The notes under the pieces were generated by a model. The model was not told the DNA's origin. It did not search any database and saw only the letters and a program-made list of their open reading frames with translations. Shown one piece after another: positions 11,532 through 23,474 of a stretch of 64,000 nucleotides of DNA. The position numbers were made by a program, and so were the translations under genes. This DNA comes from Streptomyces sp. P9-A2 (GTDB taxonomy: Bacteria > Actinomycetota > Actinomycetes > Streptomycetales > Streptomycetaceae), in NCBI RefSeq assembly GCF_036634175.1, contig NZ_JAZIFX010000001.1, forward strand, positions 1,116,001 to 1,180,000. The letters run 5' to 3'. Every line of letters begins with the position of its first letter. The stretch's first letter is position 1.

Positions 11532-14498
11532 TTAGTCATTCCTGGTCGTTCCTTGTGGTGCTGCCCCGCCGGGGGCTTCGTCGCCCACGGCGTTCTCCTC
11601 GCGGCCCCGCTGCCAGCCACGCTGGAGCGAGGCCATGCGGCTGCGTACTTCCTCCGCGTCCCGTTCGACGGGCTGGGTTCTCTCCTCGTTCCGTCGTGGC
11701 ACGCTCCGTTTGAGCTGGGGGGCGAGGCTGGCCTGTCGTACGCGTCGGGGCAGCGATGCGGCGTCGGCCGGGCCGGCGCCCGTGTCCTGCGGGGCGCTGC
11801 CGGAGCCCGGCTCGGCCGCCGGGTTCGCCGCGGAGTGCTCCTGGCGGGCGTCCGGCGCGCTCGGGGGGTGTCCGGAGCCGCCCGGAGGGCCACCGGCGGC
11901 AGGGGCGGGTGGGCCGTCCTCCCGGGCGGAGCCGTGGGACGCCTGCTCCGCGGGCCGGTCGTCGGCGCGTGCGCCGATCCGGGGACGGGAGGCCGCGCCC
12001 CGCCGACGGGCGGGCAGGGGCGGCGGTTTCCCCCCGTCGGGTGGCCCCGGGTCCGGGTCCGGGGAGGGTTGCCCACCGCGGCGGCGGGTCGGCAGCCCGG
12101 GCGCCGGTTCCTGTTCCGGGCGGGCGGACGACATACCGATGTCCTGGTCCGGCCGCTCCCGGCGGACGTGTTCGTCGCCGACAGGACGTCCGTGCGAGCT
12201 GACCAGTTTGGGCGTTCCCCTGCGGGGCGGCGGGGCCGGGGCACCCGCCTGGCCGCGCACGTCCAGAGCCGGCCCGTCATCGTTGGCCTTGCCGATGCCG
12301 GTGGCCTGTGGGTGGGGCTCGCCGCGGCGGCGGCCCGGCCGCTCGTCCTTGGTGCGGGACGGGGGGCGTCGGTGACCGAACAGGCCGCCGTGCTCGTCGT
12401 CCTCGTCCCCCGGCGCGCCCGGATAGTCGTCGAGGGCGTCCAGGTCGACAGGGGCCTCGAGTTCGACCGGACCGTTCAGGAGCGAGGCGGGCAGTCCGGG
12501 CAGCTGGACGGGCGCCTGGGAGAGCGCGAGACGCCGGTTGTCCTCCGATTCCCTGTCCTTGGTGCGCCGGGGCCGGTCGAGACGGAAACCGACGCCGTTG
12601 GTGTCCGGAACCTCGTCGCTGAGGAGCGCGTCCGGGATGAAGACGACCGCGGTGGTGCCGCCGTAGGGAGACGGCTGCAGGGAGACCCGGACGTTCTGCC
12701 GCTGTGCGAGACGGCTGACCACGAACAGTCCGAGCCGGTCGGTGTCGGAGAGTTCGAACTCCGGTGTCTCGGCGAGCCGCAGGTTGGCGTCGAGCAGCGC
12801 CTCGGCGGCCATGCCGAGACCTCGGTCGTGGATCTCCAGGGTGAAGCCGTTGGCGACGCGCTCCCCCAGGACCTGGACGGCGGTGTGCGGCGGGGAGAAC
12901 ACCGTGGCGTTCTCCAGGAGTTCGGCCACCAGGTGAGTCAGGTCGGCGACGGCGGGGCCGGTGACGGCGACCCGCGGCAGTCGGCGGACCTCGATGCGCT
13001 CGTAGTCCTCGACCTCGGCGACGGCCGCGCGCACGACATCCATGAGCTGAACGGGTTTGCGCCACTGCCGGGAGGGCGCGGCGCCGGAGAGGATCACCAG
13101 ACCCTCGGCGTGCCTGCGCATGCGGGTGGTGAGGTGGTCGAGACGGAACAGGTCGGCGAGTTCTTCGGTGTCGTCGGTCCTGCGCTCCATCGTGTCCAGG
13201 AGGGTGAGCTGTTTGTGCAGCAGGACCTGACTGCGACGGGCGAGGTTGACGAAGACCTCCGAGACCCCGGAGCGCAGTTCGGACTGTTTGACGGCCGCCT
13301 CCACGGCGGCGCGCTGCAAGGTGTTGAGGGCCTGGCCGACCTCGCCGATCTCGTTCCTGTCGTACTCCAGGCGCGGGACTTCGGTCCCGACGTCCACCTG
13401 CTCGCCCGCCGAGAGGCGGCGCATCACGCTGGGCAGTCGCACACCGGACGCCTCGTGGGCCTCCAGGCGCAGCTGCCGCAGGTCACGGATGAGGCCGCGG
13501 CCGACGCGCACGGACAGGAAGAGCGAGACGAGCAGGGCGATCAGCCCGAGAAGACCGGCGACGACGGCCTGGGTGATGACGCCCATGGCGACGGGGCGGA
13601 CGCGGTCCTGGTAGCGGTCGGTGGCCTGGTCGTTGAGGGTGCCGAGTTCCTCGAGCACATGGCCGGCTGCGGTGTCCCAGCTCCTCGCGGTGATCCCGTG
13701 GGGCGGTCCGGTGCCGGAGGAGATGGCCGCCTCCTCGGCGACCCGCAGCGGCGCGGACGCCGCGTTCTTCCAGAAACTCTCGTAGCGGTCCCGTTCCGGC
13801 GCGGGCAGCTGCGGCAGACCGGCGTCGTACAGCAGCGTGCGCTGGGCCACGAAGTCCGAGACGTCCCGGACCTCGGAGCGGGACAGCGCGCCGACGATGA
13901 GGGCGGAACCGAGCAGGGCGTCCTCGCGGGCGAGGAGTTCGCGGGCACGGGCGAGGCTGACGAGGGCGCGGTACTGCTTGTCCAGCCCGACGTCGTCGAC
14001 CACGTGCAACCCGGCCAGCAGGGTGTAGCACGGGTCGATCAGTTGGTTGTAGAGGCCGAGGGCCTGAGAGCGGTCGACGGTGCCGTCCTCGACACTGCGG
14101 CGCAGGGGCTCGATGCCCTCGAAGGAGTCCAGTACCGCGCTCAGCGCTTCGGTGTCCTGGCCCATGGCGTCGCGCACATCGGGGTTCGCCACGTTCTCCC
14201 GGACGCTGCTGACGGCCTTGTCGGTGGCGGCACGGCTGCGGCGGAGCGCGGCGAGCCCGTTGGAGGCACGCGGGTCGGCGAGATGGACCAGAGTCTGGCG
14301 GCGCTCCTGCTGGAGGACACGGACGGTGTCCTCGACGGGGTAACCGACCTCTTCCATCACCGACGACACATCGAACAGATGGCTTGCCTCACGGCCCGTC
14401 AGCAGGGTGCTGAAGGCCCAGATCGTCGTCAGGGACACCAGCGGCACGAGAAGCAGCGCCACGATCTTCCGGCGGATGGACTTCCCGCGAAAGCGCAT
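11532..14498 (-). CDS. cvnA: Conservon sensor histidine kinase-like protein (CvnA-type)
   Basis: A 988-residue membrane sensor of the nitrate/sulfonate-sensing kinase type that heads conservons. A first membrane helix (about 12-32, IVALLLVPLVSLTTIWAF) is followed by an extracellular helical NIT-like domain and a second helix (VITQAVVAGLLGLIALLVSLFLSV, about 305-328). Then come a HAMP-like segment and a HATPase region with ELLENATVFSPP and HDRGLGMA. The last 350 residues are Pro/Arg-rich and disordered, which is common in CvnA. A classical phosphoacceptor His box is not obvious. ATG 14498 has GGGGGAGG upstream; the frame opens earlier (14705) without support. Confidence 0.92.
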   Translation of the reverse strand: MRFRGKSIRRKIVALLLVPLVSLTTIWAFSTLLTGREASHLFDVSSVMEEVGYPVEDTVRVLQQERRQTLVHLADPRASNGLAALRRSRAATDKAVSSVRENVANPDVRDAMGQDTEALSAVLDSFEGIEPLRRSVEDGTVDRSQALGLYNQLIDPCYTLLAGLHVVDDVGLDKQYRALVSLARARELLAREDALLGSALIVGALSRSEVRDVSDFVAQRTLLYDAGLPQLPAPERDRYESFWKNAASAPLRVAEEAAISSGTGPPHGITARSWDTAAGHVLEELGTLNDQATDRYQDRVRPVAMGVITQAVVAGLLGLIALLVSLFLSVRVGRGLIRDLRQLRLEAHEASGVRLPSVMRRLSAGEQVDVGTEVPRLEYDRNEIGEVGQALNTLQRAAVEAAVKQSELRSGVSEVFVNLARRSQVLLHKQLTLLDTMERRTDDTEELADLFRLDHLTTRMRRHAEGLVILSGAAPSRQWRKPVQLMDVVRAAVAEVEDYERIEVRRLPRVAVTGPAVADLTHLVAELLENATVFSPPHTAVQVLGERVANGFTLEIHDRGLGMAAEALLDANLRLAETPEFELSDTDRLGLFVVSRLAQRQNVRVSLQPSPYGGTTAVVFIPDALLSDEVPDTNGVGFRLDRPRRTKDRESEDNRRLALSQAPVQLPGLPASLLNGPVELEAPVDLDALDDYPGAPGDEDDEHGGLFGHRRPPSRTKDERPGRRRGEPHPQATGIGKANDDGPALDVRGQAGAPAPPPRRGTPKLVSSHGRPVGDEHVRRERPDQDIGMSSARPEQEPAPGLPTRRRGGQPSPDPDPGPPDGGKPPPLPARRRGAASRPRIGARADDRPAEQASHGSAREDGPPAPAAGGPPGGSGHPPSAPDARQEHSAANPAAEPGSGSAPQDTGAGPADAASLPRRVRQASLAPQLKRSVPRRNEERTQPVERDAEEVRSRMASLQRGWQRGREENAVGDEAPGGAAPQGTTRND

Positions 14499-14917
14499 GG
14501 CCTCCCCCAGTTCGGCCCCGGGACAGCCGGGGGCACACATGTGCGTCAACAAACGGCGCGAGCCTACTACCGCGCCACGGCCAACTCGAAGAGCTCTCCG
14601 GAATCCGAACTTCCGTACCGACGGCGAGACATGGTGAGTTGTCCGGGCATTGGGTGAGATTGACTCCCGGTTCACGGGAGGGGTCGACGGAACGAGCCAC
14701 AGCACCCGTGAGTAGGATTTGGCCGATTCCTTTCCTTACTCGGGAATCTTTGTGACGCGCCGTTCGTCCTTCTCTGTGGGTAATGGGTGCGGAATCGGCC
14801 ACAGAAGTCCCGTCCCGTATCCGGTCGGCGTAAATCAGTGCAAGCCGGGCAGTCGTTGGGGAACCGGGTCCTGGGACCCGGGAAGGCGGTCTGCCGGCGG
14901 TGGGGAGTGACACATTG
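14499..14917. promoter_or_regulatory. Divergent promoter region of the conservon and the 14918 gene
   Basis: These 419 bp, less GC-rich than the neighbouring coding sequence, separate two divergent genes. An inverted repeat with 6-bp arms CTCCCG/CGGGAG and a 5-nt loop lies at 14664-14680 and could be an operator. I see no RNA gene. Promoter positions cannot be fixed from sequence alone. Confidence 0.5.
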
Positions 14918-15604
14918 ATGGGCACGGCGGAGCGGCACAGGTCGCCCGAGGGCGACGCGGTGGCGCAGGTGATGGAACGGCCGGACGGCAAGGCTCCGAA
15001 CTGCGGCGCTCCCGTGGCAGGCAGAGGCGCGGCCGGCATCCGGGACCTTCCCACGACCAGGACTGACGAGGTGTCGGCGGGCGTGACCGGGACATGGGAC
15101 GGCGAGGACCGGACCGGGGCTGCCGCGGGCATCGCCGGACCCGGGGCAGGCGCTGCCGGAAGGACCGGTGGGAGCCGCGGCACCGGGGACGAGGCCCGCC
15201 GGCAGCCGAACCATCGGCCGTTGTGGGTGGAGGAGCCCGCGCGGCGGCGCCGACTGCCGGATCCGGTGCGTACATCGGCCGTGCGTGCGGTCATCATCGT
15301 CGCGATCACGCTGATTCAGGCCATGGTGGCCTTCCTGTGCACGCTCGCCGGTTCCTGGCTCGCGTTCCCCATGGTCATCAGCAGCGTCGTCAGCACCATC
15401 CTGGCCACCTGGGGCGTCCTCGACGTGTGGGTGACCCGCCAGGTCTGGAACCAGCGCAACGGCGTGGTGTCCGCACCCAGCAGCACCGCGCGGGCCCTGC
15501 GGCGCGAGCGGCGCCGTGTCCGTCGCCAGGAGCGGTCCACGCAGCGTGCGCAGGCGCGAATACGGCGGCAGGGCGGCGGGTCCGGTCGGCTGTCCCATCC
15601 CTGA
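14918..15604 (+). CDS. Unknown integral membrane protein
   Basis: A 228-residue protein I do not recognise. Residues 1-110 are Gly/Ala/Arg-rich and look disordered. Two membrane helices follow: AVIIVAITLIQAMVAFLCTL and AFPMVISSVVSTILATWGVL, about residues 125-175. The C-terminal 50 residues are strongly basic (RRERRRVRRQERS) and presumably cytoplasmic. ATG 14918 is chosen because GGGGAG lies 10 nt upstream. It diverges from the conservon and converges on the SMC-like operon. Confidence 0.75.
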   Translation: MGTAERHRSPEGDAVAQVMERPDGKAPNCGAPVAGRGAAGIRDLPTTRTDEVSAGVTGTWDGEDRTGAAAGIAGPGAGAAGRTGGSRGTGDEARRQPNHRPLWVEEPARRRRLPDPVRTSAVRAVIIVAITLIQAMVAFLCTLAGSWLAFPMVISSVVSTILATWGVLDVWVTRQVWNQRNGVVSAPSSTARALRRERRRVRRQERSTQRAQARIRRQGGGSGRLSHP

Positions 15605-15697: not shown

Positions 15698-18600
15698 TCA
15701 GCCGTTCGCCGGAGCAGGCCTCTTGAACATCCGGGTGGCCGTGATCTCGCTGTGCACGGCTTGCTCGTCGGAGGTCTCCCTCGGCAGGCCCGGCCTCAAG
15801 TGCTCCTCGACACTGATGTACTTGAGGCCCGCCCGTAGGTCGGCATCGTTCCGCAGACGGATGACCAGGGGGAACTCCGCGAGTGCCGTCGTGTCGAACA
15901 GACCGGTGGTGTAGAGGAGCTGTACACCGAGCGCGTCGGCCACGGCCCTCTGAAGCTCCAGCAGGTAGGTGGCGTTGGCGCGGCCGATGGGGTTGTCGAG
16001 GAACAGGGTGCCGGCGTGCCGGTGCCGGTCGCGGCCCCGGTCGTTGGAGCGCAGCGCGGCCATCGTGCAGTACAGGGCGATGGCCGCGGTGAGCAGTTGC
16101 CCTCCGGAGAACACGTCGCCCATCTGTCCGACAGGGACCCGCTCGGCGCGCAGCACGGCGTCCGGTTTGAGGATCTCGACGGCGATGCCCTTCGGCCGGA
16201 GGGCGGCGGCGACTCCGCGCAACAGCAGGGACATGCCGTCACGGCGCAGGTCGGAGTTCTTGCGGACGGCTGCGCTGGTCGCCTCGTCGACGACCTCGCC
16301 GAGCCGCTCGGTGAGGGTCGCCTGGTCGGTTTCCTCGAAGCGGATACGCAGGAATTCCTGCCCTGACCACTCGCCGAGCCCTTCGGGCAGCCGCGACAGC
16401 CGCTGGGCGGAGCGCAGAGTGGCGAGGGCCGATTCGACGAGCCCTCTGAGCCGGTCCACGATCGAGTCGCGGTTGCGTTCCAGCTGTTCCAGTTCGTCGG
16501 TGAGGACCCGGAGCCGGGGTGCGAAGGCGTCCGCCCACTTCTGGGCGTGCTCGGGCAGCGCCGAGGCGGGCAGCTCGCGGATCTGCTGCCGGGCGGGGGT
16601 GCGGACCTGCTCGTAGCGTGTGGAGTTGGCGTGCCGGACCAGGATGTCGCTGGCCTCGCGCACCGTGGACTCGGCGGCGGACAGGTCGGCGGTGCACCCG
16701 CGGAGTGATCTGCGGGCCTCCCCGGCGGACCGGCGGGCCTCTTCCGGGCTGCCGGGATAGGGCTCGGGCTGCTCCGGCTCCTCCTCCGAGGTGTGTTCCC
16801 GGAGCAGGTCGCGGAGCATAGCGGCGATCTCGTCGAAGCCTTCGGCCGCGTCCTCGGCGCCGCGGTGCGCGTCGAGGAGATCGCCGTGGATCTCCCTGGC
16901 ACTGTCCAGTCCCTCCGTCCGGGAGGCCAGTTCGGCCGTGGCGGTGCGCAGCAGCGCCTGTGCGTGCTCGGCGTCGCGCGGCACCATTTCCTCGGGGAGC
17001 GCGGTGTGCTGCCCGCCGTCCTCGGGTGCCAGCCGCTCGGTCTCGCCGCGCAGTCGCCCGAGCTGCTCGCTCGCGCTCGACATCCGGGTCTCCAGGAGCT
17101 GCACCAGTTCCTCGGCGCGGGCGGCGGCGGCCTGCCGGCTGGGACCGTCCGAGCCGTCGGGTGACTCGAGCAGCTGCTCCGCGCGGTTGCGGACCTTGTT
17201 GCTCAGCCGGTCCAGTTCCGCGCGGGCCGCGCTCTCGTCGCTCTCCGCGCGGGCCTGCTCGGCGCGCAGGTCGGCACCTACGCCGACCTTCTCGTACACC
17301 TGGGACGCGGCACGGTACGCCTCGCGCAGAGCGGGCAGGGAGATCCGCGACGGTTCGGTACCGACCCCGGCCGCGTCCTCGGGTACGTCCTCGAGGGCGC
17401 CCGCGATCTCGGCGCGCTCGGCGCGCAGCGCACGCGCGGTGCGCCGGGCATCGTCGGCTGCCCGCTGCGCGCCGCGCCGGTCCTCGTCGGCGGTCCGCGC
17501 GCGCTCCAGACAGGCCTGGGCGCGGGCCTCGGCCTCGGCGGCGTCGTCGGCCAGCTCGCGCAGTGTGGCCTGCCAGCCTGCCCGTTCGCGGAGCCGGAAG
17601 GCGAGTCCCGCGAGGGCGTCGGCGGCACGCCGGGCCTTCTGCGCGGTCTCCTGGAGCTCGTCACGCACCCGGACGGCCTCGGCGGCGGCCTCCTCGGCTT
17701 CCGCCCGCACGGTGCGTGCCTCGGCCAGCTCCGCCTCGGACTCCTCAGCGAAGACGCGGGCGTCATGCGCCGCGCGGGCCAGTTCGGTGAGCCGGCCGGG
17801 CGGGCAGCCGGTGCGCCAGGAGGTGAGCCGCGCGGTCAGCTCGCGGTCCTTGGCAAGCCGTGCCGCGAGCACCCGGATCTCCTCGTCGCGTGCGGTCGCA
17901 CGGGCACGCAGTGTCTGCCGTTCCTCGTCGGCGGCGTGTTCGTCGTGCATGGCCGGGTTCGGCGGCACCAGGAAGACGTCGCCGGTGTCCGCGCCCGACG
18001 CCGGGGCCGGTGCGAGGAGGGCGGCAGCCGTGCCGACTGCGACCGCGGAGCGGGGCAGCAGTGCGGCGTCGCTCAGGGCCGCGCGGGCGCGGGTGTGGGA
18101 GTCCGGGTCGGTGATGACGACGCCGTCGACCAGTTCCGGGCGGGCGGCCAGCACGCGCGCGTGGTCGGCGGGGTCGACGGCCTGGGCGAGGTAGCGCCAG
18201 CCGGGCAGGGCGGGAATGCCGTGCTCGCCGAGGAACTCGACCGTGGCCAGCACGTCCGGTCCCGGCGGCAGCAGCCCGCCGTCGCCGAGGGCGCCGAGGA
18301 TGCGGGCGTCGTCGGCGGCGACGGTACGCAGTTCGAACAGCTGGCGTTCGGCGGAGGAGACCGCCTCCTCGAGCAGTTCGCGCAGGTCGTCGGCGAATCG
18401 GTCCAGTTCCTTGGCGGTGAGGGCGCCTTCGGTGGCGGTGCCGTCGCCCGGCTCGGCGTCCGTGTCGGGGCGGGGCCATGGAACGCAGGGGCGGGCCTTC
18501 GCTACGGGCAGGCCGAGGAGCTCGGCCGGCCGTTCCTCCGCGGCAAGGGCCTCCGCGGTGCGCAGCTCGCTCTCGTGGGCGCGGCCGGCCGCTGTGACCG

Positions 18601-20347
18601 CATCCGCCGCGCGGGCGGCGGTGAGTTCCGCACGGGCCTCGACCGCGGCGGCTTCGCGCGCGTGCTCGGTCGCCCGGTGGGACGTCTCACGGGCCGTGTC
18701 CCAAGCGGTGACCGCGGTCTTCTCCGCGTCGCCGGCCGCGAGCGCGGCGCGGGCCGGGTCGGCGTCGGGGGCGCTGTCGTCGAGCCAGCCGGCCCGGACG
18801 GCCTCCGTGGTCTCCTGCTCGACCTCGGCGAGCCGCTGCCTGAGGTGACCGATCTCGCTGCGCGCTCGCTGTGTCTCGGTGGCGGCGGCCGTGGCGTCGC
18901 GGTGGGCGGTGTCGCTGACCTCCTGAAGGGCGGCGGACCGCTCCTCCTCCTCGTTGGCGAGATTCTCCGCGTTCTGCGCGGCCGTGTGCAGGACGCGTAC
19001 GAGGTCGACGGCGGCCTTGGCCCGGGCGGCGAGCGCGGGCGCAGCGTCCCGTTCGGCCTCCTGGATCGCGGCGGAGACCCTGGCCGCCCTGTCGGCGGCG
19101 GCGCGGTGGCGCAGCGCCGCCTCGGCGGCCTGCCAGGCCGCGTACAGGGTACGGGCGTCCGCGAGTTCACGCTTCTGGGCGGCGGCGGACTTCTCCGCCG
19201 CCGTCAGTGCCAGGGAGGCGTGCCGGTAGGCGATCTCCGCGGAGATCAGCGCGCTGTGCTCACGGGCCGTCCCGGCACGGGTGACGGCGTCGGCGGCGGC
19301 GGTGACCCGGTGGGCGAGGTCCGCGGCGCGGACGCGTTCCTGGCGGCCGCGTGCGGAGAGCCTGCGGGCCAGGGTGCGGGTGCGACGCTCGGCCGCGGTG
19401 TTGATCTCCCGTGCCCGGCTACGGGCGCCGGTGGCTTCGACGATCCGGCCGAGCAGTTCGACGGACCCGGCGGTGAAGTCCCGCTCGGCGATCAGCTCGG
19501 CACGCCGGCCCAGCTTGTTGCCGAAGCCGCTGACCAGGTCGGCGAGTCCGTCGGTGTCACGGCCGTCGGTGACGGCGCGCAGCAGCAGGTCGGTGAAGTC
19601 GGAGTCCTTCTTGACCGCGAAGAGACCGGCGGCCTCGCCCTCGTCGGCGTTCATCTCCCGCTGGTAACGGAAGAGTTCGGGGTCGAGTCCCAGGTCACCG
19701 AGGTGCTCGGTCCAGCGCTCGTGGGTCTCTTCCCAGTGCACCTCCAGGTGCGGATACGTCTTGCCCGCCTCCGTGAGCGCGTCCCGGAAGCCCTTCATGG
19801 TGCGGCGGCGGCCCCGCGCGCCCGACTGGCCGTCGGCGGGCCGCCGTACGGCGGTGGCCTCGGCGACGGGAAGGTTGTCCAGGCTGAGCCCCGGGCCGGG
19901 TCGCAGCGAGTACCAGGCCTCGGCGAACTTCCTCGGGTCGTTGGAGACCTGGCGCCCACGCCATTCGCTGACCTTGCCGACGACGACGCACTCGCCGGTC
20001 AGCACGTGCTGCCACTCCAGGGCCACATGGCCGCAGTCGTCGGCCAGCAGGAACTTGCGCAGCACGCCGGAGCTGGCGCCGCCGAGCGTGTTGCGGTGGC
20101 CCGGGAGCATCACGGAGAAGATCAGTTTCAGCAGGACGGACTTGCCGCCGCCGTTCTCCAGGAAGAGCACCCCGGCGGGCGCGGGGCGACGTGGCGGGCC
20201 GACGGGCTCCTCCGCGAAGAACTCCGCCTGCGTCGGCGCGGGTTGCGGCACGGTCTCGCCGACACCGCGCAGGTCAAGCACGGTGTCGGCGTAGCGCGCA
20301 CCGGCGGGCCCGATGGAGTAGAGGCGGACCCGGGACAGCTCGTACAT
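15698..20347 (-). CDS. SMC-like coiled-coil ATPase (MukB/MksB/JetC-type)
   Basis: A 1549-residue protein with the architecture of an SMC-type chromosome-organising ATPase. Walker A, FLENGGGKSVLLKL, is near residue 64. Two very long Ala/Glu/Arg-rich coiled-coil arms flank a globular hinge-like part at about 615-800. The C-terminal head has an ABC signature FSGGQLLTAA near 1414 and a Walker B strand GTLFLDNPIGRAN near 1449. Asn follows the Walker B Asp where SMC and Rad50 proteins have the catalytic Glu. ATG 20347 follows the KITE-like gene by 83 bp; the frame open to 21295 is only a shadow of that gene. It is the last gene of a three-gene unit. It could compact DNA or exclude plasmids; function is inferred. 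Confidence 0.82.
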   Translation of the reverse strand: MYELSRVRLYSIGPAGARYADTVLDLRGVGETVPQPAPTQAEFFAEEPVGPPRRPAPAGVLFLENGGGKSVLLKLIFSVMLPGHRNTLGGASSGVLRKFLLADDCGHVALEWQHVLTGECVVVGKVSEWRGRQVSNDPRKFAEAWYSLRPGPGLSLDNLPVAEATAVRRPADGQSGARGRRRTMKGFRDALTEAGKTYPHLEVHWEETHERWTEHLGDLGLDPELFRYQREMNADEGEAAGLFAVKKDSDFTDLLLRAVTDGRDTDGLADLVSGFGNKLGRRAELIAERDFTAGSVELLGRIVEATGARSRAREINTAAERRTRTLARRLSARGRQERVRAADLAHRVTAAADAVTRAGTAREHSALISAEIAYRHASLALTAAEKSAAAQKRELADARTLYAAWQAAEAALRHRAAADRAARVSAAIQEAERDAAPALAARAKAAVDLVRVLHTAAQNAENLANEEEERSAALQEVSDTAHRDATAAATETQRARSEIGHLRQRLAEVEQETTEAVRAGWLDDSAPDADPARAALAAGDAEKTAVTAWDTARETSHRATEHAREAAAVEARAELTAARAADAVTAAGRAHESELRTAEALAAEERPAELLGLPVAKARPCVPWPRPDTDAEPGDGTATEGALTAKELDRFADDLRELLEEAVSSAERQLFELRTVAADDARILGALGDGGLLPPGPDVLATVEFLGEHGIPALPGWRYLAQAVDPADHARVLAARPELVDGVVITDPDSHTRARAALSDAALLPRSAVAVGTAAALLAPAPASGADTGDVFLVPPNPAMHDEHAADEERQTLRARATARDEEIRVLAARLAKDRELTARLTSWRTGCPPGRLTELARAAHDARVFAEESEAELAEARTVRAEAEEAAAEAVRVRDELQETAQKARRAADALAGLAFRLRERAGWQATLRELADDAAEAEARAQACLERARTADEDRRGAQRAADDARRTARALRAERAEIAGALEDVPEDAAGVGTEPSRISLPALREAYRAASQVYEKVGVGADLRAEQARAESDESAARAELDRLSNKVRNRAEQLLESPDGSDGPSRQAAAARAEELVQLLETRMSSASEQLGRLRGETERLAPEDGGQHTALPEEMVPRDAEHAQALLRTATAELASRTEGLDSAREIHGDLLDAHRGAEDAAEGFDEIAAMLRDLLREHTSEEEPEQPEPYPGSPEEARRSAGEARRSLRGCTADLSAAESTVREASDILVRHANSTRYEQVRTPARQQIRELPASALPEHAQKWADAFAPRLRVLTDELEQLERNRDSIVDRLRGLVESALATLRSAQRLSRLPEGLGEWSGQEFLRIRFEETDQATLTERLGEVVDEATSAAVRKNSDLRRDGMSLLLRGVAAALRPKGIAVEILKPDAVLRAERVPVGQMGDVFSGGQLLTAAIALYCTMAALRSNDRGRDRHRHAGTLFLDNPIGRANATYLLELQRAVADALGVQLLYTTGLFDTTALAEFPLVIRLRNDADLRAGLKYISVEEHLRPGLPRETSDEQAVHSEITATRMFKRPAPANG

Positions 20348-20430
20348 GGCGGACTCTCGAAGTCTTCGGCAGGTGGGGGGGTTCGGGCAACGGAGAGTGA
20401 GGGCACAGGACGTGGTGACGAGAGGGCGGC

Positions 20431-21318
20431 TCAGGTGGAGTGGAACGGCAGGCCCGCGTCGGCCACCAGGTCCAGGTCGTCGCCGCTGTCCGCGGGCAGC
20501 AGCGTGGGGGTGCCGTCGGTGACCGGGACGACGCCCAGCTCCAGCAGTTCGGCCAGGGCCGCGCTGCCGGCCAGGTCGCGCACCTGGAGCTGGTAGCGGG
20601 CCGTTGTCCGGTAGGTGCCGCCGTTGTCGTCGCCGGTGCGTTGCAGGAAGCCGGATTCGGTGAGGAAGGTGACGGCCTTGGCGACGATGCCGGTGGTCGA
20701 GCCCGCGAGCCTGCGGGCGTCCTTGGTGGCACCGGTCGCGCTGCGTCTCGCCCAGATCCGCCAGGCCGTCTCCAGCCCGGGGGCGTCGCTGGCCGGGTCG
20801 GTGTTCTCGCCCTGTTCCGCGGCCCGCTCCTCGAGCCGGTGGCAGGTCTGGCGCACGAAGGCGTCGACGCCGTTGACGGTGACCCGTCCGATGTAGCCGT
20901 CGTCGGCGAGGTCCTCGGGGCGCGGGAACGCCATGACAGCGACGGCGAGGTGCGCGAGCCCGTGCAGGAACCTGTCTCCGCCGTCGGCGGAAGTGCGCCG
21001 CGCGTAGTCGCCCATACGGACGGCGAACACCGAGTCCTCGGCGGCGGTCACGGCCATTCCGGCACGCGGGGACACCTCCAGGACGATCAGCCCGAGGCCT
21101 GTGGCCACGGCGTCGGCGAGCCGCGCGAACAGCGGGTCCTCGCGGTAGCGGCGCAACAGATCCGCGTACTCCTGGTCGCGGGCCGGCTGGAGCTTGGGCT
21201 GGAGGCCGAAAGCGACGAGCCGCGCCGCGTCGGCGGCGTCGGCGGGGGTGACGGCGCCGATCGCCGGTGCGACGGCGGGCTCCGCCTCGCTCCACTCGGC
21301 ATACTCGGTCACGGACAC
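20431..21318 (-). CDS. MukE/JetB (KITE)-like partner of the SMC-like ATPase
   Basis: A 295-residue protein with no membrane segment or enzyme motif. Position and size match the KITE subunits MukE, MksE and JetB: it lies between a kleisin-like gene and an SMC-like gene on one strand. The middle reads as helical (LRRYREDPLFARLADAVA). Residues about 215-260 (GIVAKAVTFLTESGFLQRTG...) look like a winged helix, as expected for a KITE protein. Two GTG starts are possible, 21318 and 21312, both after GAGGAGG. I infer the assignment mainly from context; a sensitive profile search is needed to place it. Confidence 0.7.
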   Translation of the reverse strand: MSVTEYAEWSEAEPAVAPAIGAVTPADAADAARLVAFGLQPKLQPARDQEYADLLRRYREDPLFARLADAVATGLGLIVLEVSPRAGMAVTAAEDSVFAVRMGDYARRTSADGGDRFLHGLAHLAVAVMAFPRPEDLADDGYIGRVTVNGVDAFVRQTCHRLEERAAEQGENTDPASDAPGLETAWRIWARRSATGATKDARRLAGSTTGIVAKAVTFLTESGFLQRTGDDNGGTYRTTARYQLQVRDLAGSAALAELLELGVVPVTDGTPTLLPADSGDDLDLVADAGLPFHST

Positions 21319-21445
21319 GGTTCCTCCTCGCACGGGACGACGACGGGTGCGGCAGGGACGGCGCCGCGGGCAGTACGGGCAGTGCAAATGGCTGTCACCG
21401 GGCCACCGGCCGCGGACGGCTCCCGGTCCCCGGGCGAAAGGCTCG

Positions 21446-22972
21446 TCACGCCGCCTCCGTCCGGTCCGCCGCCATCCCCGCCGCGTCCAACAGGGCCGTG
21501 CCGACGATGAGGTCGGCGCCGCCGAACTCGAAGTCGTCCAGCTCGACGCCGTCGTCCACCGCGAAGAGCAGCCGCCGCTCGCCCTGGCGGTAGGCGGTGC
21601 CCACCGGAGGGCTGGCCGCATGGACCGCCAGCAGCGCCACCAGGTACGGCAGTTCGGGGTCCTGACGGCGTGCCTCCGCGAGCAGTCCGGACAGCCGGCG
21701 GGGCGCGTCGGCAGGCAGTTCCAGCAGCGCGGTCGCGGCCGCCAGCTGCTTCTCGGTGAAGCGGCTGTCGTCCGGTGTGGCGATCAGGTCGGGTTCCGGC
21801 ATCTCGGCGCCCAGGTGCTCCCGCTCCACCGGCGGGGTCAGCAGGATGCCGACGAGATCGGCGACCCGGACGGACACCGGTGTACGCAGTCCGGTGCCGC
21901 GGGCGAAGAAAGTGTCGGTCACCCGGACCGCCTGCTCCAGAGGAAGGGGGAGCAGCGGTGCCAGGAGGTGTCCGTAGAGGTCGGTGCCCGAGGACGAAGC
22001 GGGGGTGGCGAAGGCCTGCCGGTCCTGTTCGGCGCGGAACAGCGGGCCGGCCTCCAGCAGCCGGGACTGCAGCTGGGTGTGCCTGCGGATGCAGTCCTTG
22101 ACGATGTCCACCAGCTCGGCGGCCCTGCGCTTGTGCTCCGGTTCCTCCGACTCGTCGCGGGCCCTGCGGATGTTGGTGAGGATCGCGTTCTCGTGGCGGT
22201 ACCGGTCCGCGATGTGGTCCAGGGCCTCGGCGATCATGTCCGGGACGGCAGTGAGCCAGTCCACGGCACGCACATTGCGCCGGGTGGCGTCCAGGGCCCG
22301 GCGCAAGGATTCGGAGTACTGCACGGTCCGGTAGCGGGCCTGCTCGGCGGCGAGTTGGGCGTCGGCGAGCCTGCCCCGGCTGATGAGCACCTCGAGTTTG
22401 ACCTCGGCGGCGATCTGGGCGCTGGTGACGTCGGTGTCCAGGGCGCCGACCAGGACGTTGACCGCCTCGTCCGTGGTGCGGAGGTAGACGGTGCCGCCGA
22501 GGCCGGGGACCTCCTCGATCAGCTTGAAGTCGTAGTCGCGGCGGACGTAGGCGCCGTCCGCGCCGAACACGCCGTACACCGCGCGGAAGCCGCGGTCGAC
22601 GCTGCCGACGTTGATCAGGTTCTCCAGGACCCAGCGGGCCACCCGCTCATGCTCACCGGCGGGCCGGCGCGGGGCATGGGCGGCGATACGCGGGATGAGC
22701 CGGGCCACTATCTGGTCATGGTCGGCGCCTGTGTCGAAGTCCATGTTCAGTGTCACCAGGTCGATGGCCGCCAGGGCGATCTCCGCCATGCCGTACACCG
22801 AGTACTCGCCGGCCAGGTTGGCCTTGCGCGCGTCGAGGTCGTGCAACGGCGCGGTGCAGGCGAGCGCGCGCAGCCGCCGGGCCAGCCCCTCGTCGGCCGC
22901 CGGGCCCGGCGCGGGCCGCGGCCCCGTGCTGAGCTGGGGCGGAGCGCTGTCCGTCGATGCTGGTGAAGTCAC
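21446..22972 (-). CDS. Kleisin-like (MukF/MksF/JetA-type) subunit
   Basis: A 508-residue helical protein at the head of the SMC-like operon. Residues about 40-110 look like a winged-helix segment (VARWVLENLINVG), and the middle is a long helical bundle (ISRGRLADAQLAAEQARYRTVQYSESLRRAL). The C-terminal third is predicted globular. Such a plan fits MukF, MksF or DUF3375/JetA subunits, which bridge the ATPase heads. No enzyme motif is visible. The start is uncertain: GTG 22972 and TTG 23002 are both in frame and neither has a strong ribosome site, so a leaderless transcript is possible. Confidence 0.68.
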   Translation of the reverse strand: MTSPASTDSAPPQLSTGPRPAPGPAADEGLARRLRALACTAPLHDLDARKANLAGEYSVYGMAEIALAAIDLVTLNMDFDTGADHDQIVARLIPRIAAHAPRRPAGEHERVARWVLENLINVGSVDRGFRAVYGVFGADGAYVRRDYDFKLIEEVPGLGGTVYLRTTDEAVNVLVGALDTDVTSAQIAAEVKLEVLISRGRLADAQLAAEQARYRTVQYSESLRRALDATRRNVRAVDWLTAVPDMIAEALDHIADRYRHENAILTNIRRARDESEEPEHKRRAAELVDIVKDCIRRHTQLQSRLLEAGPLFRAEQDRQAFATPASSSGTDLYGHLLAPLLPLPLEQAVRVTDTFFARGTGLRTPVSVRVADLVGILLTPPVEREHLGAEMPEPDLIATPDDSRFTEKQLAAATALLELPADAPRRLSGLLAEARRQDPELPYLVALLAVHAASPPVGTAYRQGERRLLFAVDDGVELDDFEFGGADLIVGTALLDAAGMAADRTEAA

Positions 22973-23474
22973 GGTGCACAGACTAGGTCCTCGGTCTGAC
23001 AACGACCCAAACGACGCAGATGCGTCACGGTGTCGCGGTTGTCACACGCCCCGTTCCTCCTCCCTCGTCCTGCGCCGATGCGCCTCCGCTTCACTGCGGC
23101 AGGGCGCCGCTGAACCGTTCCTCTTGACTGAGCGGGAGTGAGCCCGTTCAGCCGCACGCCCCGAACGGTCTTGGGCGCTCCCCCACTGCCTCAAGGGCGT
23201 GGGAGATACCCCCAGGTCCCCGGCGTACTCAACCCCGGGGCGGCGACACGCATCCCGTGCGTGGTCCGGTTCCAGGAGGCCGGTTCCCTGCACGACCTGC
23301 CACGCGGGTAGGGCCGGAGGCGACGGGGAGGCCCCGAACCATCGCTCCGGTGGAGCGGGGCCCCGCACGCCGACGCCGACACCGTCCCGGCGCCGCAGAT
23401 CGCACGATCACGTCAGCCCGGCCGGCCCAGCATGCCGCAAGCCGTTGAGCACCCGACCACACGATCAAGCTGAT
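22973..23474. other. Intergenic region upstream of the SMC-like operon
   Basis: Five hundred bases separate the SMC-like operon from the SGNH hydrolase gene upstream on the same strand. It should contain the operon promoter. A GC-rich palindromic element sits at 23178-23215. No reading frame here has convincing codon use or a ribosome site. Confidence 0.55.
23178..23215. repeat. Palindromic REP-like intergenic element
   Basis: On the minus strand CTCCCACgccCTTGAGgcaGTGGG folds as a stem with GGGGGTAT flanking it. The sequence resembles the short palindromic CTCCCAC-type elements repeated in Streptomyces intergenic DNA (recollection, not searched). It may act as a terminator for the SGNH operon. 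Confidence 0.5.

Follow-up and report, generated by a model that had tools for sequence, protein, structure and literature searches.

Among the described bacterial complexes of the structural maintenance of chromosomes (SMC) type, the nearest to the one considered here are the Wadjet systems, an anti-plasmid family whose PADLOC definition requires all four genes jetABCD, lesser sets being reported as Wadjet 'other' (PMC9252829), and MksBEF of Pseudomonas aeruginosa, a proposed precedent for the loss of the nuclease JetD (PMC10586767). The 64-kb stretch of the Streptomyces sp. P9-A2 genome analysed here (the window: contig NZ_JAZIFX010000001.1, positions 1,116,001 to 1,180,000; coordinates are positions within it) carries a jetABC trio read entirely on the minus strand. 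Because JetD is absent and PADLOC requires the full set, the trio is, by this gene-content test, not a Wadjet system. The reading towards which we lean is a core SMC complex on the chromosome with an origin in defence, descended from JetABCD (Wadjet type III) by loss of JetD and serving the DNA-damage response. Since the trio looks like a defence system that lost its nuclease, and a promoter motif of DNA-damage type stands in front of it, it is probably a former weapon turned to repair or to the care of the chromosome. Smc5/6, which is proposed to trap and compact viral circular DNA, offers a comparison: tentatively, the trio could be its bacterial counterpart, a damage-response complex that lost JetD, kept its damage promoter and came to repair damaged linear chromosomes, or hold them together, as part of the core gene set.

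Descent of the trio and the absence of JetD

An earlier reading of the window from its letters and open reading frames (the sequence-only reading) had described three co-directional genes of 508, 295 and 1549 codons, encoding a kleisin-like, KITE-like and SMC-like set in the order and size scheme of MukFEB, MksFEB and JetABC, with no JetD/MksG nuclease gene adjacent. The genes are real and lie where that reading placed them (Table 1), and PADLOC matches of JetA to JetA3 and of JetC to JetC3 put the trio in the JetABC family; the profiles it had named (DUF3375, DUF4194 and TIGR02680) give way to type III, where PADLOC finds the nearest relatives. JetB has no PADLOC match; it is a homologue, at 29-53% identity, of the B genes found in JetD-bearing operons, and the B proteins of those operons themselves gave weak PADLOC JetB3 matches in four of six tested, one with E < 0.001. 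No trio protein matched the MukB, MukE or MukF families of Pfam or NCBIfam, JetC had no match to SMC_prok_B (TIGR02168) in the NCBIfam search, and the canonical Smc is encoded at a separate locus of the same genome (C1:5840325, 904 bits).

JetD was matched neither by PADLOC in nine neighbouring frames nor by Pfam in ten, in agreement with the earlier statement that no nuclease gene is adjacent; the gene downstream of jetC is convergent. A JetD gene elsewhere in the genome was also considered and rejected: the genome-wide search that the same reading had proposed returned no match to JetD_C (PF09983) and none to JetD3 (PDLC00594) in the assembly (8.39 Mb, two contigs, 100% complete). TOPRIM genes that PF09983 found in some genomes are by eye of other types and not JetD3; four of them resemble the TIGR02679 kind.

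JetA3 was found in 98 of 101 Streptomyces genomes (of the three misses, two are assemblies 78-82% complete and the third is 98% complete) and in 61/61 Streptomycetaceae genomes representing 17/17 genera, G398 having a distant copy only (158 bits). A class-wide sample of 296 genomes yielded JetA3 in 43, of which 28 are Streptomyces and the other 15 come from a single additional family (f18). The core jetA is mostly single-copy and lies at a median of 1.2 Mb from the chromosome end (24 chosen near-complete chromosomes, rounded lengths). JetD3 was found in none of the 93 core loci with jetC, 92 of which have at least 1.2 kb of downstream sequence, and in none of 14 JetD-less f18 loci, 10 of which have that much sequence. 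No core-type copy was found in 72,556 plasmid records (five records match, the best at 53% identity), and the eight pattern matches of an IMG/VR scan with the JetC alignment include no relative. At L039 (G012:C1:5731000-5749000) most of the core jetA is kept and the 18 kb examined contain no jetB or jetC, a possible loss.

Comparison of the window with eight relatives (24 comparisons) gave dN/dS, the ratio of nonsynonymous to synonymous substitution rates, of 0.09-0.26 across all three genes; jetA, jetB and jetC are, by this measure, under purifying selection. A broken Wadjet copy was rejected on the strength of these ratios and of the 61/61 family genomes, and the corresponding explanation, a decaying Wadjet relic, to which the absence of JetD and the G012 locus would lend themselves, is very improbable on the same two counts.

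Within Streptomyces, full JetABCD operons were seen only as divergent extra copies (9/101 genomes). JetD3 matches with E < 0.001 were obtained in 16/101 genomes, seven of them weak (about 32 bits or less) and nine strong; the strong matches represent ten loci (at least 152 bits), each 6-7 kb from a second, divergent JetA that is 27-52% identical to the window JetA in the loci compared, and the core copy is present in all nine genomes as well. The JetD-bearing set used below consists of 13 divergent copies chosen from genomes with JetD3; JetD3 is found in 12 of these loci, and the other (L142) stops at a contig end. JetA relatives on plasmids (Rhodococcus, three Streptomyces, Polaromonas) have JetD after jetC in 5/5 cases, at 183-347 bits with our own JetD3 profile. 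One linear chromosome has a JetD-bearing type III operon near both ends (L028, G090:C1:3000-22000, and G090:C1:9228822-9230261); because the two copies score equally, they perhaps lie in terminal inverted repeats. At L129 (G276:C1:1230000-1248000) a JetD3 gene is preceded by no more of jetC than its final 100 codons or so, a remnant of a JetD-bearing operon. Mean GC content at third codon positions (GC3) is 0.94 in core genes, versus 0.79-0.84 in the JetD-bearing set, one locus of which (L127) reaches the core level; genes in that set mostly overlap, and those of the core are separated by gaps.

In a 46-row JetA tree, all JetD-less rows fall on one side of a branch (98/95), and in a tree of 29 rows with a Polaromonas outgroup, itself on a long branch, the JetD-less clade is nested among JetD-bearing rows (96/96). 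Because JetD-less JetA is thus nested inside JetD-bearing relatives, JetD was most likely lost from a JetABCD ancestor. Protein searches also found JetA relatives in Amycolatopsis, Prauserella, Saccharomonospora and others (P0256, P0269, P0281, P0292, P0338); most of the Amycolatopsis/Prauserella-type proteins aligned are 60-64% identical to the window JetA, and this slow-evolving type is perhaps a further core set.

The promoter motif and its bearing on function

Alignment of the upstream regions of 38 core loci revealed a single conserved block, immediately upstream of the GTG that starts jetA. Its counterpart in the window, TTGTCAGACCGAGGACCTAGTCT, ends seven bases before that codon and is the single match in 64 kb, where 0.03 would be expected; the jetA start is likely leaderless. 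TTGTCRG-N10-TAnnnT is taken here as the consensus of the RecA-NDp/PafBC promoter. When three of 100 core loci, which lacked jetA or upstream DNA, were set aside, 60 of the remaining 97 fit this pattern and 93 fit the looser TGTCRG-N10-TAnnnT, the last four having one substitution in the TGTCRG part. Across 78 related, and so non-independent, loci, the looser pattern was found 78 times at jetA and not once elsewhere in 3.81 Mb of strand, and the reversed pattern was not found at all.

The genome of Streptomyces sp. P9-A2 has 31 strict sites, versus three for a reversed control pattern, and the motif precedes its recA, uvrA and uvrB genes, which served as positive controls. Twenty of 30 fetched sites were chosen for a Pfam scan after the first residues of their frames had been viewed (hence not blind; the trio was one of those left out). 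Of these 20 frames, 11 encode proteins of repair, recombination or replication (RecA, UvrA, UvrB, MGMT, MgsA, two UvrD, DnaX, UDG, an AlkZ-like protein and one of the RecD2-HHH kind); helicase domains were found in a further three, and the remaining six carry different domains or no domain at all. Frames downstream of the own-genome sites (L158-L187) include WGR, SUKH-4 and SWIM domains. With 31 RecA-NDp-like sites, this strain may well have a sizeable PafBC-type regulon. In published accounts, PafBC acts at RecA-NDp and PafB and PafC of S. coelicolor are named (PMC6789036), S. coelicolor SCO6735 has a RecA-NDp promoter and is induced five-fold by UV (PMC5087735), and PafBC is activated by single-stranded DNA (ssDNA) and binds a -26 motif (PMC11804915).

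By its descent and motifs, the complex should work as JetABC and MukBEF do. DNA damage, in the form of ssDNA, would activate PafBC, which would drive leaderless transcription of jetABC; the product would then load on DNA and use ATP hydrolysis to extrude loops, the mode of action proposed for JetABC and MukBEF; having no nuclease, it would compact, tether or untangle damaged chromosome arms instead of cutting them. Alternatively, the trio may be a general condensin, comparable to MukBEF or to P. aeruginosa MksBEF, that organises the linear chromosome during ordinary growth or sporulation, with the damage promoter only raising its level. This is rather unlikely: it would suit the shared gene plan, the first rank of MukBEF/MukEF entries in fold searches (see below) and the core, mostly single-copy distribution, but Smc is already present in the genome and the sole conserved block upstream of jetA in the 38 core loci is of damage type. 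That the trio still restricts DNA through a nuclease encoded elsewhere, such as one that the same regulator induces, is improbable; repair genes of the genome do share the motif, and the search for a nuclease partner was confined to JetD, but neither JetD_C nor JetD3 has a match in the genome.

Several observations weigh against a damage-response complex formed by loss of JetD. The motif in the window reads TTGTCAGAC, where 26 of the 31 genome sites have TTGTCRGTG, so that promoter strength may be reduced. The JetD-less f18 relatives are mostly without the motif (of 13, none strict and two loose), which implies that the damage link is not common to the whole JetD-less group. Five of the 13 loci of the JetD-bearing set (L020, L021, L024, L122, L142) do have it; damage control may therefore predate the loss of JetD, as an old trait of defence that is no proof of a repair role, and damage may induce some of the type III defence systems. 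An initial search in S. venezuelae suggested that the PafBC motif of Mycobacterium smegmatis is not conserved there (PMC9380542). As to history, long branches meet in the Polaromonas-rooted JetA tree, which makes it less clear; a tree of the JetC head (39 rows) places the two JetD-less families apart (18% of its 200 bootstrap trees unite them in a single clade), and two losses of JetD are therefore possible. JetA of the Amycolatopsis type has short branches and, in a tree of 34 rows, falls outside the JetD-less clade, which keeps a support of 93/87; since these proteins were read without their gene neighbours, there may be further lineages without JetD, and JetD may have been lost more than once.

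The sequence-only reading had left the choice between a chromosome condensin and a barrier lacking its nuclease. A non-cutting barrier, switched on by ssDNA, that traps or compacts plasmid or phage DNA would accord with descent from an anti-plasmid family and with the same promoter type in the five JetD-bearing loci, but we consider it doubtful, the trio being near-universal in Streptomycetaceae and no core-type copy being found among the plasmid records. A near-universal single copy, a partly kept neighbourhood, purifying selection and a damage-type promoter together favour the first branch, a chromosome-serving role.

Features of the locus and its proteins

Table 1. Features of the jetABC locus in the 64-kb window
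Feature	Position	Strand	Remarks
RecA-NDp/PafBC-type promoter motif TTGTCRG-N10-TAnnnT	22980..23002	-	sole match in the window; conserved block in core loci
jetA, JetA3/MukF-like kleisin gene, 508 aa, GTG start	22972-21446	-	PADLOC JetA3 (PDLC00567), 612 bits, E 2.2e-184; AlphaFold2 model
jetB, JetB3/KITE-like gene, 295 aa, GTG start	21318-20431	-	between jetA and jetC; homologous to B of JetD-bearing operons
jetC, JetC3-like SMC ATPase gene, 1549 aa, ATG start	20347-15698	-	PADLOC JetC3 (PDLC00588), 1399 bits, E 0; ATPase motifs
JetC Walker A-type loop LENGGGKS, residues 63-70	20138..20161	-
JetC ATP-binding cassette (ABC) signature FSGGQ, residues 1413-1417	16097..16111	-
JetC Walker B LFLDNP, residues 1448-1453	15989..16006	-	Asn where a catalytic Glu usually stands
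Small convergent gene, product by eye a membrane protein	14900..15604	+	directly after jetC, where JetD would lie; outside the system

JetC has the Walker A, ABC signature and Walker B motifs that had been noticed in the SMC-like protein. The first Gly of the textbook Walker A is absent in all 21 relatives in the alignment, and in the LDNP Walker B Asn replaces the usual catalytic Glu after Asp in 21/21 type III JetC proteins aligned (the window included), with and without JetD. The two coiled-coil arms and central globular part of the earlier description fit a pattern of composition only: Pro is scarce at residues ~250-600 and, less cleanly, at ~850-1100, and abundant in the middle at ~600-800. 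For the two smaller proteins, which had been expected to resemble kleisin and KITE folds, the outcome is partial. Fold searches with the AlphaFold2 model of JetA place MukBEF/MukEF entries first, with unrelated helical proteins scoring close, and ScpA and other non-MukF families are not among the fold matches listed, which excludes nothing; the JetB model has low confidence (predicted local distance difference test, pLDDT, 55) and gave no useful match. Sequence searches of the PDB with JetC, JetA and three alignments returned, as the sole SMC match, the Smc4 coiled coil among other coiled coils.

Around the trio, the 90 core loci compared (locus ends limit these counts) keep a sensor kinase gene, identified by eye, in 60 cases (11532-14705 in the window), the small gene at 14900 in 52 and a GDSL lipase gene in 45.

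Comparison with known systems

A bacterial immune SMC complex has seemingly become a near-universal housekeeping complex, with nuclease-bearing and nuclease-less states coexisting in some cells, so that conversion between defence and chromosome SMC complexes becomes testable. In the open-licence literature, the SMC complex and the RecA-NDp-type damage regulon brought to notice here in the main antibiotic-producing genus appear little studied: in open-licence PMC only one paper, on BrxR, combines 'PafBC' with 'Wadjet', passages on the RecA-NDp/PafBC regulon name no SMC complex under such a promoter, and none of the titles and abstract beginnings listed concerns a JetD-less type III trio in Streptomyces or such a trio under a RecA-NDp promoter.

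With Wadjet type III the trio shares the JetA and JetC families, the A-B-C order and the ATPase motifs, including the LDNP Walker B; it differs in having no JetD, a core chromosomal locus, a gapped operon, high GC3 and a damage-type promoter in nearly all core loci. MukBEF has the putative kleisin-KITE-SMC order in common with it and supplies the first fold matches of the JetA model, but the trio lacks any Pfam or NCBIfam MukB, MukE or MukF match. Unlike P. aeruginosa MksBEF, the trio is, by its PADLOC matches, of type III stock, belongs to Streptomycetaceae, stands beside Smc and has a promoter of DNA-damage type. With the RecA-NDp/PafBC regulon, as represented by Streptomyces recA and SCO6735, it shares the promoter motif and a near-leaderless start.

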